Source: Bacteroidota bacterium | Lineage (GTDB): Bacteria; Bacteroidota; Bacteroidia; JABDFU01 | Length of the DNA stretch: 64,000 nucleotides | Assembly (NCBI GenBank): GCA_016183775.1 | Contig: JACPDY010000087.1 | Location: forward strand, 1-64,000 | Reading direction: 5' to 3' | Shown here: one piece after another, positions 26,544-38,660 of the stretch | How the letters are laid out: each line of letters opens with the position of its first letter | How positions within the stretch are numbered: the stretch's first letter is position 1 | Notes under the pieces: generated by a model | Databases searched by the model: none | What the model saw: the letters and a program-made list of their open reading frames with translations, nothing else | Told to the model about the DNA's origin: nothing | Made by a program: the position numbers and the translations under genes

Positions 26544-28154
26544 ATGTTAGGTTCGCCCTGTAAATATGTCCTGGTAGTTGTGCTTTTGTTTGGCCTTCAT
26601 TTAAAGGCACAAAAAAAAACATATGAGGGACAGGGATCTGTGACAGAAATAATAATGGCTTCCCAGGCAGAAATGGTTGGACATTTCGATATGTTTTTTA
26701 ATTCCAAGGTTAACCAGGATGAAGTTGATAAAAAGATGTATTGGTATAAAATTGTTTTTGCCAAAGAATGTACATTCGACTTTACCCTTTTCCCACTTTA
26801 TGAAAGCGACCGCTATTCCTTTATTGCATTTAAAGTAGAAAACGATTTGAATTTTTGCGATGCAAAAGCAAAGCAAAGTATAACCGCTATAAACGACATA
26901 CGGATAGTGAGAAAATATGCTGATAATGAACAGTCCGAATCGTTTCGTGCCAATGTTGTTGTCACTAAAAAAGTTCCTGTTAAAGCAGGAGAAGCAGTTT
27001 ATATTGTAATTAAAAACTTGTGGGGTAAAGATCTCGGGCATATCCTGGGATTAAACACTTGCGATTATTCGTATGTATTAGAAACGGAAAAGTTAAAATA
27101 CAAGTCAGATACAGTGGTCCAACAGCAATCAGTTTATAATGAACTTAGTGAAGAAGAGGCATTAGCCTCAATCGGTAAAAAATTATGCCCTCCCGATAGA
27201 ATACCTATAAAGCTGGGAACCATTAGTTTTAATAAAAAGATAAGTGTATCAAACCAGCCTTATGCCAATGGAGAGTCGAAAAATAATTCACAAAAAAAAA
27301 TAATACCAACAGACTTTGTTCCTTCGTCTGCAGTGAACAATAAGGTAAAAGCCAAAACAGATACCAGCACAAGTAGAGTTGAAATAAAAACACAACCGGG
27401 AAGCAATTCTCTCAGACAAAATAATCAGGTAAAAGATAAGAGTTTAGTTGCGGCCGATATTTTTAAAACCAAGCCTGCAGATGCACAACGCGTTCCGGTA
27501 AGATGTTTAATTACAGATGCAGTAAAAGGATTAAGTGTGGATAATGCGCCTGTTATTATTGATGAACTTTTGGGAAAGTCCGTTGAAGTAAAAAAAATAA
27601 AACCAGGCGAGTACGAATTTGCCATTGAAAAGGAGAAAACGTATAAAGTGGAGTGTAACGCAATCGGATATAAATATTTCGATCACAGCATTAACGTATA
27701 TAAAGTTTTAAAGGGCGAGGGAAACGAATTGGAGTTGAAACTAGATCCCCTGAAGCAGGGGGAAAATTTTATTTTGCGAAATATTTATTTTCACCCCAAT
27801 ACTCCCGTAATTAAAAATGAATCCAACAAAGAATTGGAGAAGTTATATGTGTTCATGAGAAACAATCCCAACGCGATCATTTCCATTGAAGGACACACCA
27901 ACAGTAACCGGCGTATCGGAAGAGAATCGAGGAGAGAACAGATTGGTGGCAAATGGGCTTTTCATGGGTCTGCAAAAAAACTGTCCCGGTTCAGGGCTGA
28001 TGAAGTGAGGGCCTACCTTACTAGGAAGACAATTGAGCCCGAACGGATCAAAACAAAAGGATGGGGAGGTGACCGTGAACTGTATCCGGGTGCAAACACG
28101 CTGCAAGAGAGCTCAAAAAATATGAGAGTAGAAGTGGTCATTCTTAAAACATAA
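26544..28154 (+). CDS. OmpA-family outer-membrane-associated protein
   Basis: This 536-residue protein has a signal peptide (VLVVVLLFGLHLKAQ), an N-terminal beta-rich domain of about 190 residues, a low-complexity lysine/serine/asparagine linker (about 230-310), a carboxypeptidase-regulatory-like stretch (VDNAPVIIDELLG), and a C-terminal OmpA-like peptidoglycan-binding domain with ISIEGHTNS and FRADEVRAYL. It likely tethers an outer-membrane or periplasmic structure to the cell wall. It lies just upstream of the chaperone/subunit/usher-like genes and may contribute to that structure, though a separate role is equally possible. Confidence 0.82.
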   Translation: MLGSPCKYVLVVVLLFGLHLKAQKKTYEGQGSVTEIIMASQAEMVGHFDMFFNSKVNQDEVDKKMYWYKIVFAKECTFDFTLFPLYESDRYSFIAFKVENDLNFCDAKAKQSITAINDIRIVRKYADNEQSESFRANVVVTKKVPVKAGEAVYIVIKNLWGKDLGHILGLNTCDYSYVLETEKLKYKSDTVVQQQSVYNELSEEEALASIGKKLCPPDRIPIKLGTISFNKKISVSNQPYANGESKNNSQKKIIPTDFVPSSAVNNKVKAKTDTSTSRVEIKTQPGSNSLRQNNQVKDKSLVAADIFKTKPADAQRVPVRCLITDAVKGLSVDNAPVIIDELLGKSVEVKKIKPGEYEFAIEKEKTYKVECNAIGYKYFDHSINVYKVLKGEGNELELKLDPLKQGENFILRNIYFHPNTPVIKNESNKELEKLYVFMRNNPNAIISIEGHTNSNRRIGRESRREQIGGKWAFHGSAKKLSRFRADEVRAYLTRKTIEPERIKTKGWGGDRELYPGANTLQESSKNMRVEVVILKT

Positions 28155-28317: not shown

Positions 28318-29265
28318 ATGAAGATGAAACAAATAAAAATTATTTTTGCGCTGCTTAGCCTGAGTCCGGTTTTTGATTTAGTAGCACAGGACGCAAACAA
28401 ACCAAAACCCAATGCCGTAACGGTTCAGGATACTTCGAAGGCAAAATCAGGCGCTGCGATAACATCACCTGAGCAGCCATTTCATTTGGCAGATACCGGT
28501 ATAACTGATTTGGGAGTGGCTGTATCTCCTTCTAATGTGCGTTTTAGAACTAAACCAGGTTCATCTGAAACCAAGTACATTACCGTAACAAATGATACGC
28601 ACAAATCAGAAAAATTTAAAATAAGTTTCGCTGATTATAATATGAATAATCAGGGAGCTGTTGCTCAATTACCTATAGGACAGAATCATGAATATGGAGT
28701 TAGTAAATGGATGAGTATTACTCCTTCATTCGTAGAGCTTAAAGCAGGCGAAAAGAAAAAAATTGCAGTTACATTGTCTATACCCGATGACCCAACCGCT
28801 TACAGGGCAGGTTGGGGACTAATTATGGTTGATCAAACAAAAGAAAGAGAATCATTAGCTCCTCCAAAAGATCAAAAGGATAATATTGTGATGGGTGTTA
28901 TTCCTGTGTTTGGCTTCGGAATATTTGTCTTTCAAAATCCTCCGAATGTTAAAATAAATAAAGTGGAAATTCTTAAATTCAATTACGCATATGATGATAA
29001 AAATAGATATGTAAATATTACAGTTAAAAATGTTGGCGATGGATTGGCCTTTTGTAAAGCTTACATTGAAATTAGTAATTTGAATAATGGTTTTAAAGAT
29101 AAACTTATGTTAAGGCAATTAACTATTTTTCCCGGAATGGAAAGAAATATTGACTATACATTGCCGGGGGCTTTGCCTAAAGGGAAATATGTAGCAACAG
29201 CTGTAATGGATTTTGGAAGTGACTCTGAGGTTGAAGCTGCTGAATTGGAATTCACAATAAATTAA
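28318..29265 (+). CDS. Periplasmic Ig-like chaperone-type protein (PapD/COG1470-like)
   Basis: This 315-residue protein has a signal peptide (FALLSLSPVFDLVAQ) and a short linker. It then has a first beta-sandwich domain (VSPSNVRFRTKPGSS, YITVTNDT, WMSITPSFVELKAGEKKKI, VTLSIPDD) and a second one (PPNVKINKVEILKFN, YVNITVKNVGDG, PKGKYVATAVMD). The first domain reads like the N-terminal domain of periplasmic pilus chaperones. A transmembrane anchor is absent, in contrast to DUF916/WxL proteins. Two small secreted proteins and an usher-like outer-membrane protein follow, so I infer a chaperone for those subunits. Homology to PapD is by pattern, not proved. Confidence 0.65.
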   Translation: MKMKQIKIIFALLSLSPVFDLVAQDANKPKPNAVTVQDTSKAKSGAAITSPEQPFHLADTGITDLGVAVSPSNVRFRTKPGSSETKYITVTNDTHKSEKFKISFADYNMNNQGAVAQLPIGQNHEYGVSKWMSITPSFVELKAGEKKKIAVTLSIPDDPTAYRAGWGLIMVDQTKERESLAPPKDQKDNIVMGVIPVFGFGIFVFQNPPNVKINKVEILKFNYAYDDKNRYVNITVKNVGDGLAFCKAYIEISNLNNGFKDKLMLRQLTIFPGMERNIDYTLPGALPKGKYVATAVMDFGSDSEVEAAELEFTIN

Positions 29266-29733
29266 TATTGCCCGCTTTATTCTTCTGTGATTTTTTTATT
29301 ACTCTCAGAATAGTTTTTCATAACTATTATTAAACTAATTTGGATAGATATTTATCCAAATGACATCTATCCAAATTAGTAATATTAACTAGGTGTTTAT
29401 ACGTAAAAATTATTTATAATCTCTTTTTTTGTGGAGTTGTTTTTGATAATATTATTAAAAAAAATACTTTTTCAATATTTTGTTATCTGTTTGATCTTCA
29501 ATATTAACTGTTGATTGAGCGCTTCGATAATTTCTTTATTTTAAAATATGTAACCTTTTATCTAACGATTTCGTAGAACTCAAAAGTTAGTTACTATAAA
29601 CATGTTGATCTTTAAAATTACATATCGAAATGATAGCTCATAAAGTGAAGATTTTATTTCACCGTCCAATCTTTTTTTTTACTTTTGACATTCTAACCTA
29701 AACGTTAATAAACAAACCAACACCCCAAACATT
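29266..29733 (+). other. 468-base leader/intergenic region before the major subunit gene
   Basis: This is very AT-rich, with no credible gene. It contains the three-armed inverted repeat at 29334-29380, T-rich stretches (about 29421-29455 and 29669-29690), and an AACATG-rich middle. No complete TTTG-N19-TAnnTTTG promoter is evident. The length suggests a regulated leader for the subunit gene. Confidence 0.6.
29334..29380 (+). repeat. Nested inverted repeats with alternative pairing
   Basis: ACTAATTTGGATAGAT (29334-29349) pairs perfectly with 29365-29380. Inside it, TTTGGATA (29339-29346) can instead pair perfectly with TATCCAAA (29353-29360). The two hairpins exclude each other. There is no T-tract after either, so a plain terminator is unlikely. 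Confidence 0.75.
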
Positions 29734-30603
29734 ATGAAAAAGATCATGAAATCATCAGCGCTTCTTATGGCAATGGCTATGGCTACTGCCTCGTTTGCGC
29801 AATTACAGGATGAACAAAACGTTACCATAACGATGGACCTTCAGCCTGTACTTCAATTAAAAATGGAAGGCCCGGACCAGCTTGAATTTACTTTTGATGA
29901 AATCAATAAGTATTATGCAGGTATTACTAAATACGGAGCAACTGTTTTGAAAGTTAGTGCTTCTGTAGGTTGGGATCTTTGGGCGGCTGGTCTGTCTCAA
30001 AATGCTACTAACCGTATGTGGGATAATCCTTTGTCGTACGCAATTGTTGGAGCAACCAACGCAACTACTTCTATTCCAGTTACTGCGTTAGAGCTTCACC
30101 AGTTTCCTGCAAACCCTTCAATCGCGGGCCTTTGTGCAACTACAACTTCTAACTTAGCTGATTACAGTGCTCCATTCGCACCTGTGACGTCTGCATCTGC
30201 ATCTTCTATGGCAGGTAATAACGTTATTTTTGCTGCGGATAATACTGCTCCTTACACGGCACCTACTACAGCAGCCGCGGCAACATCTGAAAAATATATT
30301 GCAGGTGCAAGCGGAACATATGCTGCACTTCTTCAGTGTGGTGTTGTTGGAGGTAGTTACTTGACACAAACGCTTGCTTCGAATAACTATCGTTATGTGT
30401 TGGATTATAGGATATTGCCAAACTTACCGGTGAAATTTCCTGCACACTATACTGCTACTTCTACAGGCAAAGCAACTTCGTTGACTACTGCTGAAGGTGC
30501 TTCAGGCTTACCTGCTGCAACTCAAGCTGCAACAAGCGGAGTTTATGCAGCTCCTGGTGTCTACACTATGTACGTAAAATACATTTTGATGCAGGATAAC
30601 TAA
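29734..30603 (+). CDS. Secreted subunit-like protein (probable major structural subunit)
   Basis: This 289-residue protein has a clear signal peptide ending SFA, then a mature chain rich in Ala, Thr, Ser, Gly and Tyr. The motif LEFTFDEINKYYAGIT...GATVLKV near residues 50-75 and the C-terminal pattern LDYRILP...PGVYTMYVKYIL recur in the next gene. It follows a long leader and is closed by a strong terminator, typical of an abundant product. There are few cysteines (two, around residues 132 and 208). I infer a fibre or surface-layer subunit exported with the chaperone-like protein. No named family was recognised with confidence. Confidence 0.65.
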   Translation: MKKIMKSSALLMAMAMATASFAQLQDEQNVTITMDLQPVLQLKMEGPDQLEFTFDEINKYYAGITKYGATVLKVSASVGWDLWAAGLSQNATNRMWDNPLSYAIVGATNATTSIPVTALELHQFPANPSIAGLCATTTSNLADYSAPFAPVTSASASSMAGNNVIFAADNTAPYTAPTTAAAATSEKYIAGASGTYAALLQCGVVGGSYLTQTLASNNYRYVLDYRILPNLPVKFPAHYTATSTGKATSLTTAEGASGLPAATQAATSGVYAAPGVYTMYVKYILMQDN

Positions 30604-30613
30604 AATTTATTCC

Positions 30614-30660
30614 AATAATAAAAAGGGGCTATTTTTAATGAATAGCCCCTTTTTATTATT
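30614..30660 (+). terminator. Strong bidirectional-type intrinsic terminator
   Basis: A perfect 20-base inverted repeat (30614-30633 against 30641-30660) with a 7-base loop, a GGGGC/GCCCC core and A/T flanks, followed by TTTTT. It lies 11 bases after the major-subunit stop codon, so it should cut transcription before the minor-subunit and usher-like genes. Confidence 0.92.
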
Positions 30661-30717
30661 TTTTTGTCTGTCCTTCCTTATTATAATCACTTTAAAAATA
30701 CATATATTTACTGAACT

Positions 30718-31410
30718 ATGTATACATGTACGAAGGAGGTTTACATTTTTCAGGCTCAACGACTATTTTTGATTGCTATTTTTGCATTTTTCTCCTTTAA
30801 TAATTTGGTTTCTCAACCAACTTGTACGGCCGCTCTCCCAACTCCTGCCCCTGGGAATTGCAATTCCACTTTGGCAGCTTTAAACCCTTCGCTTTACATA
30901 ATGACAACTACAGCCAATATTGATTTTACATTCGATAATATGGCAAAGTATTTAGGCGGTATAACTCAAAATGGCGCAACGGTGTTAAAGCTGGTTGTCA
31001 ACACCAACCCAGCAGGTGTAGCCGTTTGCAGATGGAATATGGAAATACACATTGAGACGTTTGGTGGCACGCCTGCTACTGAATGGGAACTGCTCACACC
31101 TTATGGTTTTGATGTCCTGCCTCATGCACCACTTAATCTTCTTCAAATTCGTACAAGGAATGAATGTAATACACCCGTTTTTTCGACTTTTCAAAGTATT
31201 GCAGATAATAGCCTTTCCAGCATTCCGATTATTAATCTTACTGGTGCAACAAATGCCGGATGTGTGCCTAATGTGAATGCTCCGGGAAGTTTTCTGACGA
31301 ATTACAGTCAATATCATTTTACTATGGATTACAGAGTTTTGCCGCCTACTACATTACAACCAGGTATATATCAGGTACTCGTTCATTATTGTTTGTTCGA
31401 ACAAAACTAA
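30718..31410 (+). CDS. Secreted subunit-like protein, paralogue of the 29734 product (minor/tip candidate)
   Basis: This 230-residue protein has a hydrophobic signal segment (LFLIAIFAFFSFNNLVSQ). The mature part has IDFTFDNMAKYLGGITQNGATVLKL, quoted here in shortened form as TFDNMAKYLGGIT, matching TFDEINKYYAGIT of the upstream protein. Its end, MDYRVLP...PGIYQVLVHYCLFEQN, matches the end of the other subunit. It has several cysteines (CTAALPTPAPGNC near the N-terminus, CRW, NEC, GCV, YC), unlike its partner. I infer a minor or tip subunit. It is followed six bases later by the usher-like gene, so these two are one unit. Confidence 0.62.
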   Translation: MYTCTKEVYIFQAQRLFLIAIFAFFSFNNLVSQPTCTAALPTPAPGNCNSTLAALNPSLYIMTTTANIDFTFDNMAKYLGGITQNGATVLKLVVNTNPAGVAVCRWNMEIHIETFGGTPATEWELLTPYGFDVLPHAPLNLLQIRTRNECNTPVFSTFQSIADNSLSSIPIINLTGATNAGCVPNVNAPGSFLTNYSQYHFTMDYRVLPPTTLQPGIYQVLVHYCLFEQN

Positions 31411-31416
31411 TATATA

Positions 31417-34400
31417 TTGAAAAAGAGCAGTAAATACAATGTTCTGTTTACGTTTTTATGTCGGGGCTTTGCATTGTGTTTAATGCTGTTTCCTGTTTCT
31501 TCGTTTTCTCAAGTTGATTCCGCAAAAGTAAAGTCAGATACTGCTTCGCAGGCTTCTCCTTTAAAAAAGGGTTTTGAAAAAAAAATAACCGCTAGTTTCG
31601 ATACTTTGCCATGCGTGTTAAAGGAGGGAGATATTATATCAAAAGTATTGCAGGTACGGAACAATTCAGGGAAATCATTCGCTTTTACCATTCAGGTGGA
31701 TCACCCACCCGGATGGAGATCGTTCAACACCCGTAATCGCTTATATGAAGTTAATAATGGTGACACGATATTTGTACCGGTTCGGGTAATTCCGAACGGA
31801 AAAATAATTGGAAATACAAAATACAGGATCAATGCTTATGTTTTAGAAAAGGATAGTACACCTGTTGCAACTGATCATTTTTATGTAATCAGAAATAAAC
31901 TTAGTAACTGGGAAATCAGTGTAAGTCCCGGCGAAAAAATATATTTTTTAAATAGGGAAAACACAACAAAGTTTAAAGTTAGTATCAGTAATAATGGAAA
32001 TGAAGACCAGGAGGTTGTACTTGGATTTGAGAATCCAAGAAAAAGTGTGATCATTTCAGATTCCACCAACCGGCGAATTAAAAACGAATTAAAAAATCTT
32101 AAACTTAAACCCGGCAATGATACTACCTTTCAATACAATGCAACATATACTGATGGAATAAAGAATCAAAAAAGAGTGGATACAGAAAGTTACAATATGC
32201 AATCGAGTTCTGAAACGCATACTTCGTCAATTTATGTAAATGCCAGTGAGCCTCTGTTAAGTGGTGGTGGATTAAAAAGGGCCAAGAAGGTTTCATTTAT
32301 TAAACTTGGTAATCAAATTGAGGCTAGTCGCTATGGTTATTCAGCATTTCCGCTTATAATGGATGCTAATATGTATAATATTATTGGTGGACAGCCAATT
32401 CTGGGTATTAATTTGAGAGGGTCAACAAACATTGGAACGGATGGAATCGTGAATTATTATTCCCAGTATTTTTTCTCAAATTCATATTATACAAATGATT
32501 ATTTCATGAATAGCTTTAACTACATAGGATATTTTGATAGTAAGTATTCAGTTGAGATTGGTGATATAGGGGGGGCCATAGGCGGTTATGGTTCTGCCGG
32601 TAAAGGTCTGAGTGCAGGGTATCAATTCCATCCTGAACATAAAGTTGCTGCATTCTATACCAGATCAAGACTTTTTAGCAACGCTGATAGAGAAGGATTT
32701 GGAGCAGCTTACAAGTATACCCCTTCCTTTGGTGTATTTAATGTTTCGTATACAAGAACTTCATATAACCCCAATAGTTTAACTACAGATTATTTTGGTG
32801 GAAACGCATCTGTACCCATTAAAGGTGGACATTCCGTTAGCCTTGGTGGTTTTTTGGCCAATAATAATTCTACTCAGCTGTTGAATTCATATAAACGAAC
32901 AGGCTACCAGCTGTTTGGAGGATACTCCGGGGTTTTCTTTAAAGATGCCCGATTACACACCGGTTTGAACGGGTCATACGTCTCCAGATATTTCGAGCCC
33001 AATAATAGTGGCAGTATGATCAACGGTGGTTTGACAAATTATTTTTACTTAAATAAAAAAACTGCCCTCATGCTTTCAAATCTGTATAGTCAGATAGATT
33101 ATAAGCCGGTGCAGTTTTCTAATTATTCGTATTTTTCACAATCATTTTTGAATAACCTTTCTACTTCTTTTAAAACGGATAAGGTGTCTATCTCTCCCGG
33201 ATTATTTTATAATGTAAATTACTATGAGCGATCTAATAAATCTCATCTTTATCATTCAAGGGGTATAAGCATTGGTACAGGAACATATGAATATGAAACA
33301 AATAAATTACTTAGTGCCTCTGTCATGGCGGGGTATAACAGAGAAATTGGGATTCAGCCGGTGCGTGATTATTTTTTCCTGCAGTTTTTTTCAATGTACA
33401 GGTACAAAGTTTACAGTGCCAGTCTCCGGTACTCATATGGCAATATAGCCGCTTCTGCGGAACATACAAATGCCCCTCCTCAGGTTATTGCCCTTATGTT
33501 TAATCATCAGTATCAATTTAATGATCCACATTTGATTTTACAAAATTATTTTAGTTATTCATATTACACCGCTTTTCAACGGCAGTCACTTTCTTATACC
33601 CCTGAATTATATTATTATACGAATACGGGTTGGCGATTGAAGTTATCTCCGGGAGTTTATTGGAGCAGATCTAAGTCCTCGGCTGAAGGTATAGTAAACG
33701 GACCTGTTTCTTATGCATACTTTGGCACGCCCACACCTACCACAAGTACAACTGTTAATATAATGGTTGGTGTTAGAAAGGAATTTGGTATTCCGAACCC
33801 GTTTTCTAAAAAGAGATTTTATTCACTCGACTTTGTTGCTTTTGTTGACGTTAATGGGAATAACAAGAGGGATCAGGGAGAATATTTGCTCGAGAATATT
33901 GTGTTACGACTTGGCGAGTTGGAAGTATTGACAAATGAAAGGGGCAGAGCAAGCATCAAAAATATTGCAATGAATAAATATAATTATTCTGCGTTTTCTT
34001 TGGTTGATATTGAAGGCTTTTTCCCCAATATTGAAGATGAACTGAATGTTTTCAAAACCAGAACCGGTGATAGCGCAGTTTGCGTCCCATTCGTGAAAGG
34101 AATAAAAATATACGGTAAATTAGTTTTAGATAGAGAAAAAGTGGCAGAAAACACAGAGCTGCCTGTAGACCTTGGAGGGATTACTATTAGCGCTGTAAAT
34201 GGTAAGACCATAAAAACCCTAACGGAAGCTGACGGTTCTTTTCAATTCTATGTTCCATACGGACGTTATAAACTTAACATGGATGAGCGCATTTTGGGCG
34301 ATCGTTTTCATCTGCTCGAAAATAATATTGAGCTAAGTTTGGATAGGAAAACAGAAAGCATGTTTATTACTTTTTATATTGTTGAAAAGAAGCGTAGAAT

Positions 34401-35067
34401 CAATAAGAAACGGTTTGATGCCAACGGACATCGAATTGATGATGGTACCGGTTCACTTAATAATAATCGTACGCATGATGGTGTAACAACAGTTGATAGT
34501 GAAGGTGACATAAATAAAAATCCCAACGCAGGAAAAAATTTAGTTGAGGAGGCCAATGCCGCCGCGGCAAGTGTTAGTCCCCGTCCACCTTATGAGGCGA
34601 CCAAAGATGCGTTCCTGAAAGATAAGACAAGTGTTACTAATACTAATGGGGTGATCTATACGGTTCAGTTAGGTGCCTTCCAAAAGCCTTTAAATCCCAA
34701 TGTATTTAAAGGACTTAAAAATTTAATGTATGAACGCATTGATAATGAGTTTGTGCGTGTAACAGCCGGTATGATATCAAGCGAGGCCGAAGCCCAGAAC
34801 GAAAAAGATAATTTAGCAAAAGTAGGCTTCCCAACGGCATTCGTTTCTGCATACAACAATGGTAAAAATATATCATTAGAGGATGCGACTAAGATCCTTA
34901 ATGCAAATAAGCAACCTGCAAACAAACAAGCTGTGGGTGGAAAAAATGCCGTTAAAAAACCAGCTACTACACCTGCAGGAAATGGTGCGAAGTCAAATGT
35001 TCCCGCGACAAAAGGCGTAGTTAAAAAGCCAGCTACTCCTGCTGCTAAAACTACTGGTGGTAAATAA
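31417..35067 (+). CDS. Large usher-like outer-membrane protein with C-terminal SPOR domain
   Basis: This 1216-residue protein has a signal peptide (1-31). Two Ig-like N-terminal domains follow (about 45-260: VLQVRNNSGKSFAF, KFKVSISNNGNEDQ), then a long tyrosine/serine-rich region of alternating strands that looks like a beta-barrel (about 290-790). After it comes FVAFVDVNGNNKRDQGEYLL, a carboxypeptidase-regulatory/SdrB-like turn also seen after barrels in ushers (shown at the 20-residue limit), and a second such domain near 920-980. A SPOR domain (IYTVQLGAF near 1079) and a Lys/Ala/Pro-rich tail finish it. It starts with TTG. I infer an outer-membrane assembly platform for the two subunits, anchored to peptidoglycan by SPOR. 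Confidence 0.65.
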   Translation: MKKSSKYNVLFTFLCRGFALCLMLFPVSSFSQVDSAKVKSDTASQASPLKKGFEKKITASFDTLPCVLKEGDIISKVLQVRNNSGKSFAFTIQVDHPPGWRSFNTRNRLYEVNNGDTIFVPVRVIPNGKIIGNTKYRINAYVLEKDSTPVATDHFYVIRNKLSNWEISVSPGEKIYFLNRENTTKFKVSISNNGNEDQEVVLGFENPRKSVIISDSTNRRIKNELKNLKLKPGNDTTFQYNATYTDGIKNQKRVDTESYNMQSSSETHTSSIYVNASEPLLSGGGLKRAKKVSFIKLGNQIEASRYGYSAFPLIMDANMYNIIGGQPILGINLRGSTNIGTDGIVNYYSQYFFSNSYYTNDYFMNSFNYIGYFDSKYSVEIGDIGGAIGGYGSAGKGLSAGYQFHPEHKVAAFYTRSRLFSNADREGFGAAYKYTPSFGVFNVSYTRTSYNPNSLTTDYFGGNASVPIKGGHSVSLGGFLANNNSTQLLNSYKRTGYQLFGGYSGVFFKDARLHTGLNGSYVSRYFEPNNSGSMINGGLTNYFYLNKKTALMLSNLYSQIDYKPVQFSNYSYFSQSFLNNLSTSFKTDKVSISPGLFYNVNYYERSNKSHLYHSRGISIGTGTYEYETNKLLSASVMAGYNREIGIQPVRDYFFLQFFSMYRYKVYSASLRYSYGNIAASAEHTNAPPQVIALMFNHQYQFNDPHLILQNYFSYSYYTAFQRQSLSYTPELYYYTNTGWRLKLSPGVYWSRSKSSAEGIVNGPVSYAYFGTPTPTTSTTVNIMVGVRKEFGIPNPFSKKRFYSLDFVAFVDVNGNNKRDQGEYLLENIVLRLGELEVLTNERGRASIKNIAMNKYNYSAFSLVDIEGFFPNIEDELNVFKTRTGDSAVCVPFVKGIKIYGKLVLDREKVAENTELPVDLGGITISAVNGKTIKTLTEADGSFQFYVPYGRYKLNMDERILGDRFHLLENNIELSLDRKTESMFITFYIVEKKRRINKKRFDANGHRIDDGTGSLNNNRTHDGVTTVDSEGDINKNPNAGKNLVEEANAAAASVSPRPPYEATKDAFLKDKTSVTNTNGVIYTVQLGAFQKPLNPNVFKGLKNLMYERIDNEFVRVTAGMISSEAEAQNEKDNLAKVGFPTAFVSAYNNGKNISLEDATKILNANKQPANKQAVGGKNAVKKPATTPAGNGAKSNVPATKGVVKKPATPAAKTTGGK

Positions 35068-35705: not shown

Positions 35706-35915
35706 TTAGCTTATACGGAAAGTAGTTGAGTTTATGAAATGAAACGTACTTGCCGTTAATGCCCGACGTGGCGGTTTGCATTTTCGCAAACCTGAGTTGG
35801 GTAGGTATAACTGGTAGTTATCAACAATAACTTGCTCATACATAATAGGCTAACTACATACTGCAATAGGGCATTACAGCTATTTTTGTATGGATCCAGA
35901 TAGTGTTTGTATTCA

Positions 35916-38660
35916 ATGAAACTGAAAGTTGGAATATTTTTTGGTGGCACCTCTAAAGAGCGCGAAATATCTTTTGCAGGCGGTCGTACAGTATACGACA
36001 ATTTAAACAAATCGCTTTTCGAAGCGATACCCATACTTGTTGATAGTTTTGGAAATTTTATTCTTCTCAACTGGCAATTTATTTACAAAGGCAGCATCCG
36101 CGATTTTTATCCCCCGGTTGATTCTATCCCTGACTCCAATGGGGAGTTCCAGGTGTATGCCGAAAATCTTGGCCCACTTACAGTTCAGCAGCAGGATGAA
36201 CTAATAGAAAAGATCGGCACTAAAGTATATCATTCCGAACTAAGCACACTGATCGATTTTGCTTTTCTTTGTTTGCATGGAGCAAATGGTGAAGATGGTC
36301 GCATGCAGGGGCTGTTGGAATATTTGAATATCCCTTATTCAGGTTCTGGAATATTACCATCTGCCATAGGAATGAATAAGGCTGTTCAAAAGGAGATGAT
36401 GGTGAACGCGGGTTTTGCCAGCCCGAAGTTTTTCAGTATTGACAGGAAAGGATGGATGGACGGGAAAAATTGTAAGGAAAGTTTTATTAAAGCAAACACA
36501 GAAATTGGATTTCCCTTAGTCATAAAACCGGCTAACCAGGGTTCGTCAATTGGTGTAACTATACTTCAGCATGCGGATGAACCCAGTTTTATGGTGGCCG
36601 TCGAAAAAGCGTTGTTCACACGCTGGGTAGATGCAAAAATGTGGAATGGTCTTACAGAACAGGAAAAGAATGACTTTGTACGTGTATTAGCTGATATTCG
36701 TGAAGGGATCGGGATGCCTGTAAAGGTTTCAGGTTTTAGGTTTCAGGTTCAGCAACCGTCATACCTGAAACCTGAAACCAGTAACCAGATTTATCATCCT
36801 GATAAATTGGTTGAGTGTCTGAACGATGTTTTGAAAAACGAGGAGGTAGTTGTTCTTGAATCACTTGATGGTGAAAGCAATGTGCTGGTTGAAGGTTTTA
36901 TTGAAGGCAAGGAATTTTCATGCATCGTTGTGCAGAATGAAAACGGAAAAGCAATTGCGTTGCCTCCAACTGAAATAAGAAAGGGTAAAGAATTATTCGA
37001 TTACCGTTCAAAATATTTACCGGGCCTTTCCCGGAAGATCACTCCTATTGATCTTCCTACTGATCAGATCAATGATATACGTATACAGTGCGAGCGCTTG
37101 TTCAACACGTTTCATTTCGATGTGTATGCCCGTATTGATGGTTTTATCGGTAAAGGTGGCAGTGTGTTTCTCAATGACCCTAACACAACATCTGGTATGA
37201 TGCCGTCCTCTTTCTTCTTTCACCAGGCGGCAGAGATCGGACTTAACCCGTCTCAATTTTTAACGTATATTATTCGTACTTCATTGTCACAACGAATTGT
37301 GGCATCTGGAGGAAGCGGCGCATTCGATCATTTATTAGATGCGCTTGATAATGCTATTCACCAGGACCAGAAGGCAGCTTCGCAACGTATTAAAGTAGCT
37401 GTCATATTTGGAGGCTATTCATCCGAACGACATATCTCTGTTGAAAGCGGACGTAATGTATATGAAAAGCTGGCTTCATCAACCAAATACGAACCTTTTC
37501 CAATCTTCTTAACCGGGAATGAGAATGAACACCAGATGTACCAAGTGCCTGTGAACCTTCTGCTGAAGGATAATGCTGATGATATAAAGGATAAGGTCAA
37601 TAACTATTATGTGCATGATGTTATTAAAGAGATCATTGATAAATGTTCATCCATAACACATAAATATTCCAATGCTGAAAGCATCGTTAAGCCAAAACAT
37701 GTAACATACGATGAACTGGGCCGGATGGTTGATTGCGTATTCATAGCCCTGCATGGACGCCCGGGTGAAGATGGCGCTGTACAGGCCGGCCTGGATAGAA
37801 TTGGTTTGCCATATAATGGTTCAGGTGTAGCGAGTTCGCAGATAACAATTGATAAATATAAAACCAACGAGCTATTAAAGCGAAATGGATTCCTTATTGC
37901 TGAACATCTATTGGTAAATGAAGAAGATTGGCTGAATGATAAAGCAAAGGTGTTATCAATTATTAAATCGGATATCAGGTATCCGTTTATAGCTAAGCCG
38001 GTCGACGATGGCTGCAGCTCGGCCGTTCGTAAAATAAAATCGGAAGCAGAGTTTGAAGCTTTCGCCAGACTTATCTTCAGAAAGACAGAAGAGTTGGATG
38101 AAGCGGCTGCGCAGTTATTGCATATTAAGGCTAAGGAAGAATTTCCGATGAAACGTGTTATCCTGGTGGAGGAGTTGATATCGAAAAGAGACGCTAAACA
38201 CTTTTTGGAAATAACCGGCGGTATGCTTACCAGGTATGATGAAAAAGGGAATGTTGTTTATGAAGTGTTTGAAGCCTCAGAAGCTTTATCGGAAGGAGAA
38301 GTGCTTTCACTGGAAGAAAAATTCCTCGCCGGGCAGGGGCAAAACATAACTCCTGCGCGGTATTCACATGATCCGGTTGAGCGCCAGAAAATTTCTGATA
38401 AAGTAAAACAGGTACTTGGTTCGGCTGCACGATTATTAGATATTAATGGATACACCCGTATTGACGCTTTTTTACGCATTTATGATGCAAATAAGGTCGA
38501 AGTTGTTTTTATTGAAGTGAATTCTTTGCCCGGCATGACTCCCGCAACCTGCATTTTTCATCAGTCAGCTATAAACGGCTATAAACCTTACGAGTTTATT
38601 GACAAGATACTCGATTTTGGTTTTGCAAGAAAAAGACGCCAATTGGCAAATCTTGCGTAA
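35916..38660 (+). CDS. ddl: Tandem two-module D-alanine--D-alanine ligase
   Basis: This 914-residue protein holds two Ddl modules, each about 420-480 residues, whereas standard Ddl has a single module of about 300-370. Module 1 starts KLKVGIFFGGTSKEREISF, and module 2 starts KVAVIFGGYSSERHISVES near residue 490. Both have LHGxxGEDG and ATP-grasp segments. Module 2 keeps the metal-binding EVNSLPGMTP. In module 1 the same place reads NDPNTTSGMMP, so its active site is altered. Module 1 also has an in-frame repeat insertion near residues 270-288. It makes the D-Ala-D-Ala dipeptide for peptidoglycan. I chose ATG 35916 over TTG 35907. Confidence 0.9.
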   Translation: MKLKVGIFFGGTSKEREISFAGGRTVYDNLNKSLFEAIPILVDSFGNFILLNWQFIYKGSIRDFYPPVDSIPDSNGEFQVYAENLGPLTVQQQDELIEKIGTKVYHSELSTLIDFAFLCLHGANGEDGRMQGLLEYLNIPYSGSGILPSAIGMNKAVQKEMMVNAGFASPKFFSIDRKGWMDGKNCKESFIKANTEIGFPLVIKPANQGSSIGVTILQHADEPSFMVAVEKALFTRWVDAKMWNGLTEQEKNDFVRVLADIREGIGMPVKVSGFRFQVQQPSYLKPETSNQIYHPDKLVECLNDVLKNEEVVVLESLDGESNVLVEGFIEGKEFSCIVVQNENGKAIALPPTEIRKGKELFDYRSKYLPGLSRKITPIDLPTDQINDIRIQCERLFNTFHFDVYARIDGFIGKGGSVFLNDPNTTSGMMPSSFFFHQAAEIGLNPSQFLTYIIRTSLSQRIVASGGSGAFDHLLDALDNAIHQDQKAASQRIKVAVIFGGYSSERHISVESGRNVYEKLASSTKYEPFPIFLTGNENEHQMYQVPVNLLLKDNADDIKDKVNNYYVHDVIKEIIDKCSSITHKYSNAESIVKPKHVTYDELGRMVDCVFIALHGRPGEDGAVQAGLDRIGLPYNGSGVASSQITIDKYKTNELLKRNGFLIAEHLLVNEEDWLNDKAKVLSIIKSDIRYPFIAKPVDDGCSSAVRKIKSEAEFEAFARLIFRKTEELDEAAAQLLHIKAKEEFPMKRVILVEELISKRDAKHFLEITGGMLTRYDEKGNVVYEVFEASEALSEGEVLSLEEKFLAGQGQNITPARYSHDPVERQKISDKVKQVLGSAARLLDINGYTRIDAFLRIYDANKVEVVFIEVNSLPGMTPATCIFHQSAINGYKPYEFIDKILDFGFARKRRQLANLA
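36725..36779 (+). repeat. GGTTTCAGGTT-type palindromic repeat inside ddl
   Basis: The left part (36725-36749) is built from GGTTTCAGGT units and the right part (36763-36779) is their inverted complement (ACCTGAAACC units). It is read in frame as a low-similarity insertion in ligase module 1. Related copies lie at 45411-45435 and 57770-57800. Confidence 0.75.

Follow-up and report, generated by a model that had tools for sequence, protein, structure and literature searches.

Within the window, i.e., the 64,000-nucleotide stretch of a Bacteroidota genome that was analyzed, ORF calls place four forward-strand genes at positions 28318-35067 in the order A-B-C-D, and the products of all four begin with signal-peptide-like N-termini (Table 1). 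An earlier note, made from the letters alone, had described this order, with a signal-peptide Ig-like protein first, and the ORFs and N-termini are present as claimed. A and B are 469 bp apart, and the B/C gap holds a terminator-like hairpin; thus, the locus is not one evenly read operon.

Table 1. Features of the four-gene locus, with positions in the window and the basis of each assignment.
Feature	Position	Strand	Length and basis
A: candidate periplasmic chaperone-like protein, two Ig-like domains, signal peptide	28318..29265	+	315 aa; Pfam, profile match
B: putative major pilin, homologue of the TLP-1a/TLP-2 subunit	29734..30603	+	289 aa; phmmer
B: putative N-terminal donor-strand motif, about residues 27-44, DEQNVTITMDLQPVLQLK	29812..29865	+	spacing to Phe; C-B fusions
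Terminator-like hairpin between B and C	30614..30660	+	20-pair stem, then T run
C: minor subunit, probable tip or first subunit, without B-type donor strand	30718..31410	+	230 aa; profiles
D: usher-like outer-membrane platform (predicted)	31417..35067	+	1216 aa, TTG start; AlphaFold2, Foldseek
D: two N-terminal Ig-like domains resembling A	31585..32253	+	profile-profile match; strands in model
D: barrel of ~24-26 strands, no plug insertion	32275..33795	+	secondary structure and confidence of model
D: two small C-terminal beta domains (SdrD_B/CarboxypepD_reg-like)	33817..34386	+	model; Pfam
D: SPOR-like domain, optional in family	34729..34896	+	Pfam, below cut-off

Residues 25-286 of B match two helical-fiber subunits of known structure in phmmer searches, PDB entries 9ikk (TLP-2, E=2.4e-31) and 9ikj (TLP-1a, E=8e-30), and the B family profile reaches E=2e-54 against 9ikk/9ikj. 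Both entries contain 16 identical chains, and 9ikj carries the title "Cryo-EM structure of TLP-1a". The homology spans the whole mature length of B, N-terminal strand included, and it is this relationship to fiber subunits that identifies B, on sequence grounds, as the pilin of the locus. The fibers come from water of the Tsinghua Lotus Pond, sampled in the CryoSeek study, which reportedly described a fiber of ~8 nm whose protomer n is completed by the N-terminal strand of protomer n+4, and which is said not to have given the assembly machinery. In 63 relatives, the predicted cleavage site of B's signal peptide lies 30 residues (median and both quartiles) ahead of the first conserved Phe, and the consensus N-terminal motif reads VTITMDLQPxLQL.

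B and C both carry AxA|Q-type signal peptides, and mature B starts with Q and has no lipobox Cys. Pfam returned nothing of note for either protein, with no match to Por_Secre_tail, WxL or fimbrillin families, and profile comparison with the fimbrial subunits of E. coli was also negative. An NCBIfam VirB5 match of B and a weak Pfam match of C to TRAPPC8 were judged to be chance. In the type V pili of Bacteroidales (FimA/Mfa1), strand exchange is thought to be used, and the subunits are protease-processed lipoproteins. The present locus differs from that system in its signal peptides, in the absence of a lipobox and of a fimbrillin match, and in the presence of a barrel platform.

C is related to B (phmmer 1e-7; family profiles E=3e-27, i.e., the same superfamily), which agrees with an earlier description of two secreted proteins with common motifs, and the C profile matches 9ikk as well (E=5e-8). 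The N-termini of C proteins, which span 17-58 residues by the measure applied and are often Cys/Pro-rich, do not contain the B motif. Because they are variable and not simply shorter, the difference between the two subunits rests on this missing motif, and C is probably the tip or the first subunit to be assembled. The second subunit of more distant loci is a protein of 340-480 aa whose C-terminal end looks pilin-like, a layout that, by inspection, is reminiscent of two-domain tip adhesins.

A natural arrangement of the two subunits in one chain is found in six loci, where C and B are fused. The first half of each fusion resembles C (E 1e-14 to 1e-23), the second resembles B (E 1e-43 to 1e-63), and B's strand sits between the halves. 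A fragment consisting of a fusion's C domain and ending after B's strand was modeled with AlphaFold from a 53-sequence alignment (pTM 0.81); the B strand (residues 194-206) is ordered, with a pLDDT of ~92, and adjoins the last strand of the C domain in sequence. According to the model, B's strand would supplement the C domain of the fusions with one more strand, the exact strand pairing being inferred. The motif is thus kept and predicted to be ordered in the fusions, evidence that does not extend to the donor contact within a B polymer. A Foldseek search with the fragment returned TLP-1a first, followed by the donor-strand chaperone-usher pilins AggA, CooA, CfaE-CfaB, FimA, EcpA and PsaA, from E. 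coli and Yersinia, and CsuE (E 2e-4 to 1e-2), at modest TM-scores of 0.25-0.6; unrelated GH123 enzymes and PAD4 were also among the matches. Given these scores and unrelated matches, an Ig-like pilin fold is supported but not proven.

Terminator-like hairpins, differing in sequence, recur in 44 of 58 B/C gaps, as opposed to 5 of 47 A/B gaps and 1 of 58 C/D gaps; the C/D gaps are short, and the A/B gaps are the fairer control. In the fim and pap operons, partial termination occurs after the major pilin gene. By analogy, the hairpin fits what would be expected of an over-produced major subunit, and it probably sets B above C and D.

The first domain of A is WxLIP_PGBD (formerly DUF916), detected at 27.3 bits, exactly the Pfam cut-off, and found in all 12 A-family members scanned. 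Several of these members also show Ig domains of the MSP/ASH/PapD_N type, with PapD_N itself weak in two. Against seven fimbrial chaperones of E. coli K-12, the A family profile aligned over both domains (E=7e-5, probability 63%, 196 columns), compared with E=0.0036 against pilins and E=0.44 against ushers; Synaptotagmin matches of the profile were read as generic beta-sandwich similarity. In the strand of A that aligns with PapD G1, residues 198/200/202/204 are hydrophobic in 94-100% of 70 sequences, and the basic cleft/anchor residues of PapD are not conserved in this G1-like strand across the same set. A is therefore best called a candidate PapD-superfamily/DUF916-like chaperone, an assignment made by sequence comparison, and it is inferred that A probably lends its G1-like strand to the subunits.

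The same domain raises the question of whether the locus might instead encode a Gram-negative WxL-type surface complex, in which A would hold C and B as adhesins and no pilus would be polymerized. WxLIP_PGBD is A's best Pfam domain, the A profile weakly finds EfmWxLIP1 (E=0.011), and WxL clusters likewise comprise one WxLIP and two WxL proteins (PMC10599100). In such clusters, AlphaFold predicts that a WxLIP strand completes the WxL sandwich (PMC10599100), which is the kind of contact proposed for A. The match to these DUF916-DUF3324 systems ends there: B has a homologue whose structure was solved as an assembly of 16 chains, neither B nor C has a WxL match, and A terminates after its second Ig domain, with no DUF3324 match and no C-terminal transmembrane helix. 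In addition, the described WxL clusters have no barrel (PMC10599100), whereas the present locus has a predicted outer-membrane one. On this evidence, a complex without a polymerized pilus is very improbable.

The barrel belongs to D, whose residues 30-1012 were modeled with AlphaFold2 from 45 sequences (pLDDT 83, pTM 0.60). The model consists, in order, of two Ig-like domains, a barrel of ~24-26 long strands and a pair of small domains; it contains no plug, the longest insertion between barrel strands being about 23 residues. The earlier note had seen in D a 1216-residue outer-membrane-like protein with Ig-like N-terminal domains and an apparent barrel, and had named the lack of a barrel or channel as grounds for refutation. 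A barrel is predicted, and its top fold matches are ushers: in a Foldseek search of the PDB, the seven best matches were FimD and 9 of the top 11 were FimD or PapC (best E=2.6e-12), with TonB receptors and LptD ranking after ushers at 1e-8 or weaker. Because the TM-scores are low (0.26-0.38; 0.28-0.34 for FimD), with a high RMSD, the similarity of D to ushers is partial. Profile comparison with PapD-type and usher families, which had been suggested earlier, thus gave only a match of 63% probability for A and none of significance for D, as the D family profile did not reach significance against E. coli ushers (E=0.026) and D has no Usher Pfam match.

At its N-terminus, D matches the A family in profile-profile comparison (E=4e-8 to 8e-7, probability 92-95%); to our knowledge, chaperone-like N-terminal domains have not been described for an usher. 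At the other end, Pfam finds CarboxypepD_reg in eight and SdrD_B in six of nine family members, and in the model these C-terminal beta domains are comparable in place to usher CTD1/CTD2. For D of the window, SPOR scores 17.2 bits against a cut-off of 21 (E 0.0067), a carboxypeptidase-regulatory-like match is also sub-threshold, and SPOR is missing in three of nine aligned relatives. Of the C-terminal parts claimed beforehand, small domains are thus present in the model, and the SPOR domain, optional in the family, stands only as a weak match. Two Vicingaceae loci contain, after the first, another D-like gene of smaller size (L087, 15744-18533; L090, 14846-17476).

A SPOR-like C-terminus, together with the missing plug and the absence of a usher sequence match, would also be compatible with D as an outer-membrane/cell-wall anchor of the fiber base and not a channel, with B and C exported by another route, e.g., type IX secretion. 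Several relatives, however, keep D without SPOR, and B and C, having no Pfam match, lack the Por_Secre_tail sorting domain of type IX secretion. Since the nearest fold neighbors of D are moreover ushers, ahead of TonB receptors and LptD, a mere anchoring role appears improbable.

For a view of the locus in relatives, one genome per species was scanned with the B family alignment, yielding 66 loci; a search with D alone as the query had returned no loci. The loci come mainly from Bacteroidia MAGs labeled Flavobacteriales, Bacteroidales, Sphingobacteriales or Chitinophagaceae, with one labeled Chlorobiota; about a dozen genomes of the window's own class encode close relatives of D. Linkage of all four genes is seen in 52 of these 66 independent loci, and most of the remaining loci are interrupted by contig ends. 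Subunit genes occurring frequently without the other two would, by the earlier note's own account, have counted against it; B lacks partners in only two loci (L102 and L103), and the proposed genome search recovered the four-gene set in several orders (ABCD, BCDA, BACD). As the order varies while linkage is kept, the pattern points to selection for the gene group and not to recent common descent alone. The four proteins also co-vary in their pairwise distances (Mantel r 0.73-0.88 versus a permutation maximum of 0.17 in 1,000 permutations), to which common species ancestry contributes as well; linkage and co-variation together exclude a chance arrangement. In the window's own genome, there is a single A gene and neither an Usher family (PF00577) protein nor a WxL domain (PF13731).

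Several other genes accompany the set in some loci. By inspection, a secreted protein with four tandem FKBP-like (prolyl isomerase) repeats is encoded directly after D in 13 of 66 loci (including L084, L088, L096, L100 and L107), and in 6 of these 13 the gene lies inside the set, sometimes between D and A; the protein is likely a dedicated folding helper for pilins. Just upstream of A in the window (26544-28154) is a gene for a secreted protein with a C-terminal OmpA (peptidoglycan-binding) domain, which is kept mainly in close relatives and present in two related copies upstream of A in L031. It was set aside as a fifth part, as homologues lie near the set in only 5 of 66 loci. Farther downstream, positions 35907-38660 encode a 917-aa protein apparently made of two D-Ala-D-Ala-ligase-type halves fused in tandem, and similar genes for 911-938 aa lie downstream in L032, L033 and L035. 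In the divergent loci L112, L113 and L114, a gene resembling an AraC-type regulator and one for a 143-153 aa secreted protein stand beside the pilin, perhaps as regulator and minor subunit.

The A family is present in 20 of 297 sampled Bacteroidota genomes, and 16 of its 20 sites adjoin a D-like protein (found by iterated profile) and small secreted proteins. The other four, all from one family, have only A, next to dUTPase- and PIG-L-like genes. The chaperone may have a second use in L120, L122, L123 and L126, where an A-family gene without barrel or pilins lies beside response-regulator-, dUTPase- and PIG-L-like genes.

A potential bridge to ushers was found in a class referred to here as Balneolia-like, an assignment that is a guess. 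In this class, 56 of 117 genomes match a protein of ~860-1,670 residues at E<=1e-10, the match in a few being confined to the protein's short C-terminal repeat. The protein matches E. coli ushers over 277 columns, plug region included (E=2.5e-6), and D over the last barrel strands and the C-terminal domain (E=1e-11), and it has an A-type chaperone neighbor in all 30 loci examined (A family match E=2e-18). Because the region of the protein matched by ushers is not the one matched by D, the link between D and ushers is not closed, and the bridge remains suggestive, resting as it does on sequence matches. In L137, L138, L139 and L140-L169, the usher/D-matching protein carries SPOR or TPR, and small secreted proteins ending in TVSY-type strands adjoin it in the Balneolia-like loci. 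Within the phylum, the chaperone-usher system of these loci may be the one that has changed least.

Such a bridge, together with the usher-like fold of D, the PapD-like chaperone and the chaperone-usher pilin-like fold of the subunits, could be taken to mean that the locus is a true classical, alternative or archaic chaperone-usher member that has diverged beyond sequence recognition. This explanation overlaps in mechanism with the one preferred here and differs in descent. It is unlikely, though it retains some weight: the window has no PF00577, PapD_C or Fimbrial match, profiles connect neither B nor C with E. coli fimbrial subunits, and D has extra chaperone-like domains and no plug. As a formal member, the locus falls short on three counts: the Usher domain, a plug and pilin sequence similarity. 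It is like the chaperone-usher pathway (FimCD, PapDC and the archaic CsuCD) in its inferred gene roles, two-Ig chaperone candidate, putative donor-strand pilins, modeled barrel flanked by N- and C-terminal domains, and terminator-like hairpin after the major pilin; besides the features just listed, including the two chaperone-like N-terminal domains of D, it differs in that its pilins are larger.

Taken together, the locus is very probably a chaperone-usher-like, donor-strand pathway of Bacteroidota that builds TLP-1-type pili. The linked four-gene set, the homology of B to a fiber, the N-terminal difference between B and C, the barrel with an usher-like fold and the hairpin were observed computationally; the working scheme built on them is inferred, with neither bench data nor a modeled complex for strand donation by A, assembly order, secretion through D, or an adhesive or biofilm role. 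A would capture unfolded subunits in the periplasm, probably lending its G1-like strand, and D, using its N-terminal Ig-like domains, would recruit the complexes of A with subunits and export the subunits in order. Lacking a B-type donor strand, C would come first, as the tip or initiating subunit. B would then polymerize by donor-strand exchange, in which the open groove of an earlier subunit receives the N-terminal strand of each new copy, and A's strand would be swapped for that of the next subunit during exit through the barrel. Capping by A, export of C and then B, and the strand swap are inferred by analogy with the chaperone-usher pathway (PMC9452303). The hairpin after B would keep B in excess, and gating, in the absence of a plug, would fall to the N- or C-terminal domains of D.

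The earlier proposal of a separate fimbria-like Bacteroidota system with an undescribed platform is supported by these results, which go beyond it in three respects: B's filament is in the PDB, A resembles both WxLIP (DUF916) and PapD, and SPOR is optional. The fiber has been published already, and the PDB entries hold its subunit only; the locus adds a chaperone, a second subunit and a platform. We know of no assembly system for the TLP-1 fiber from pond water, and no description of its assembly locus was found in the literature searched, so that the machinery is undescribed as far as that search reached. The locus therefore offers a probable assembly route for the otherwise unattributed TLP-1, and any cultured relative could serve to test it. 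It would also bring usher-like secretion to Bacteroidota, a phylum in which PF00577 passes the Pfam cut-off in none of the 297 sampled genomes, and suggests a possible connection among chaperone-usher chaperones, plug-less ushers and Gram-positive WxLIP proteins. Tentatively, and with the balance still somewhat against it, the locus may represent a separate Bacteroidota branch of strand exchange, with a plug-less usher that has its own chaperone-like domains and a DUF916-type chaperone in common with Gram-positive WxL clusters. If so, chaperone-usher pili and WxL/WxLIP complexes would be two outcomes of one ancient chaperone-subunit pair.
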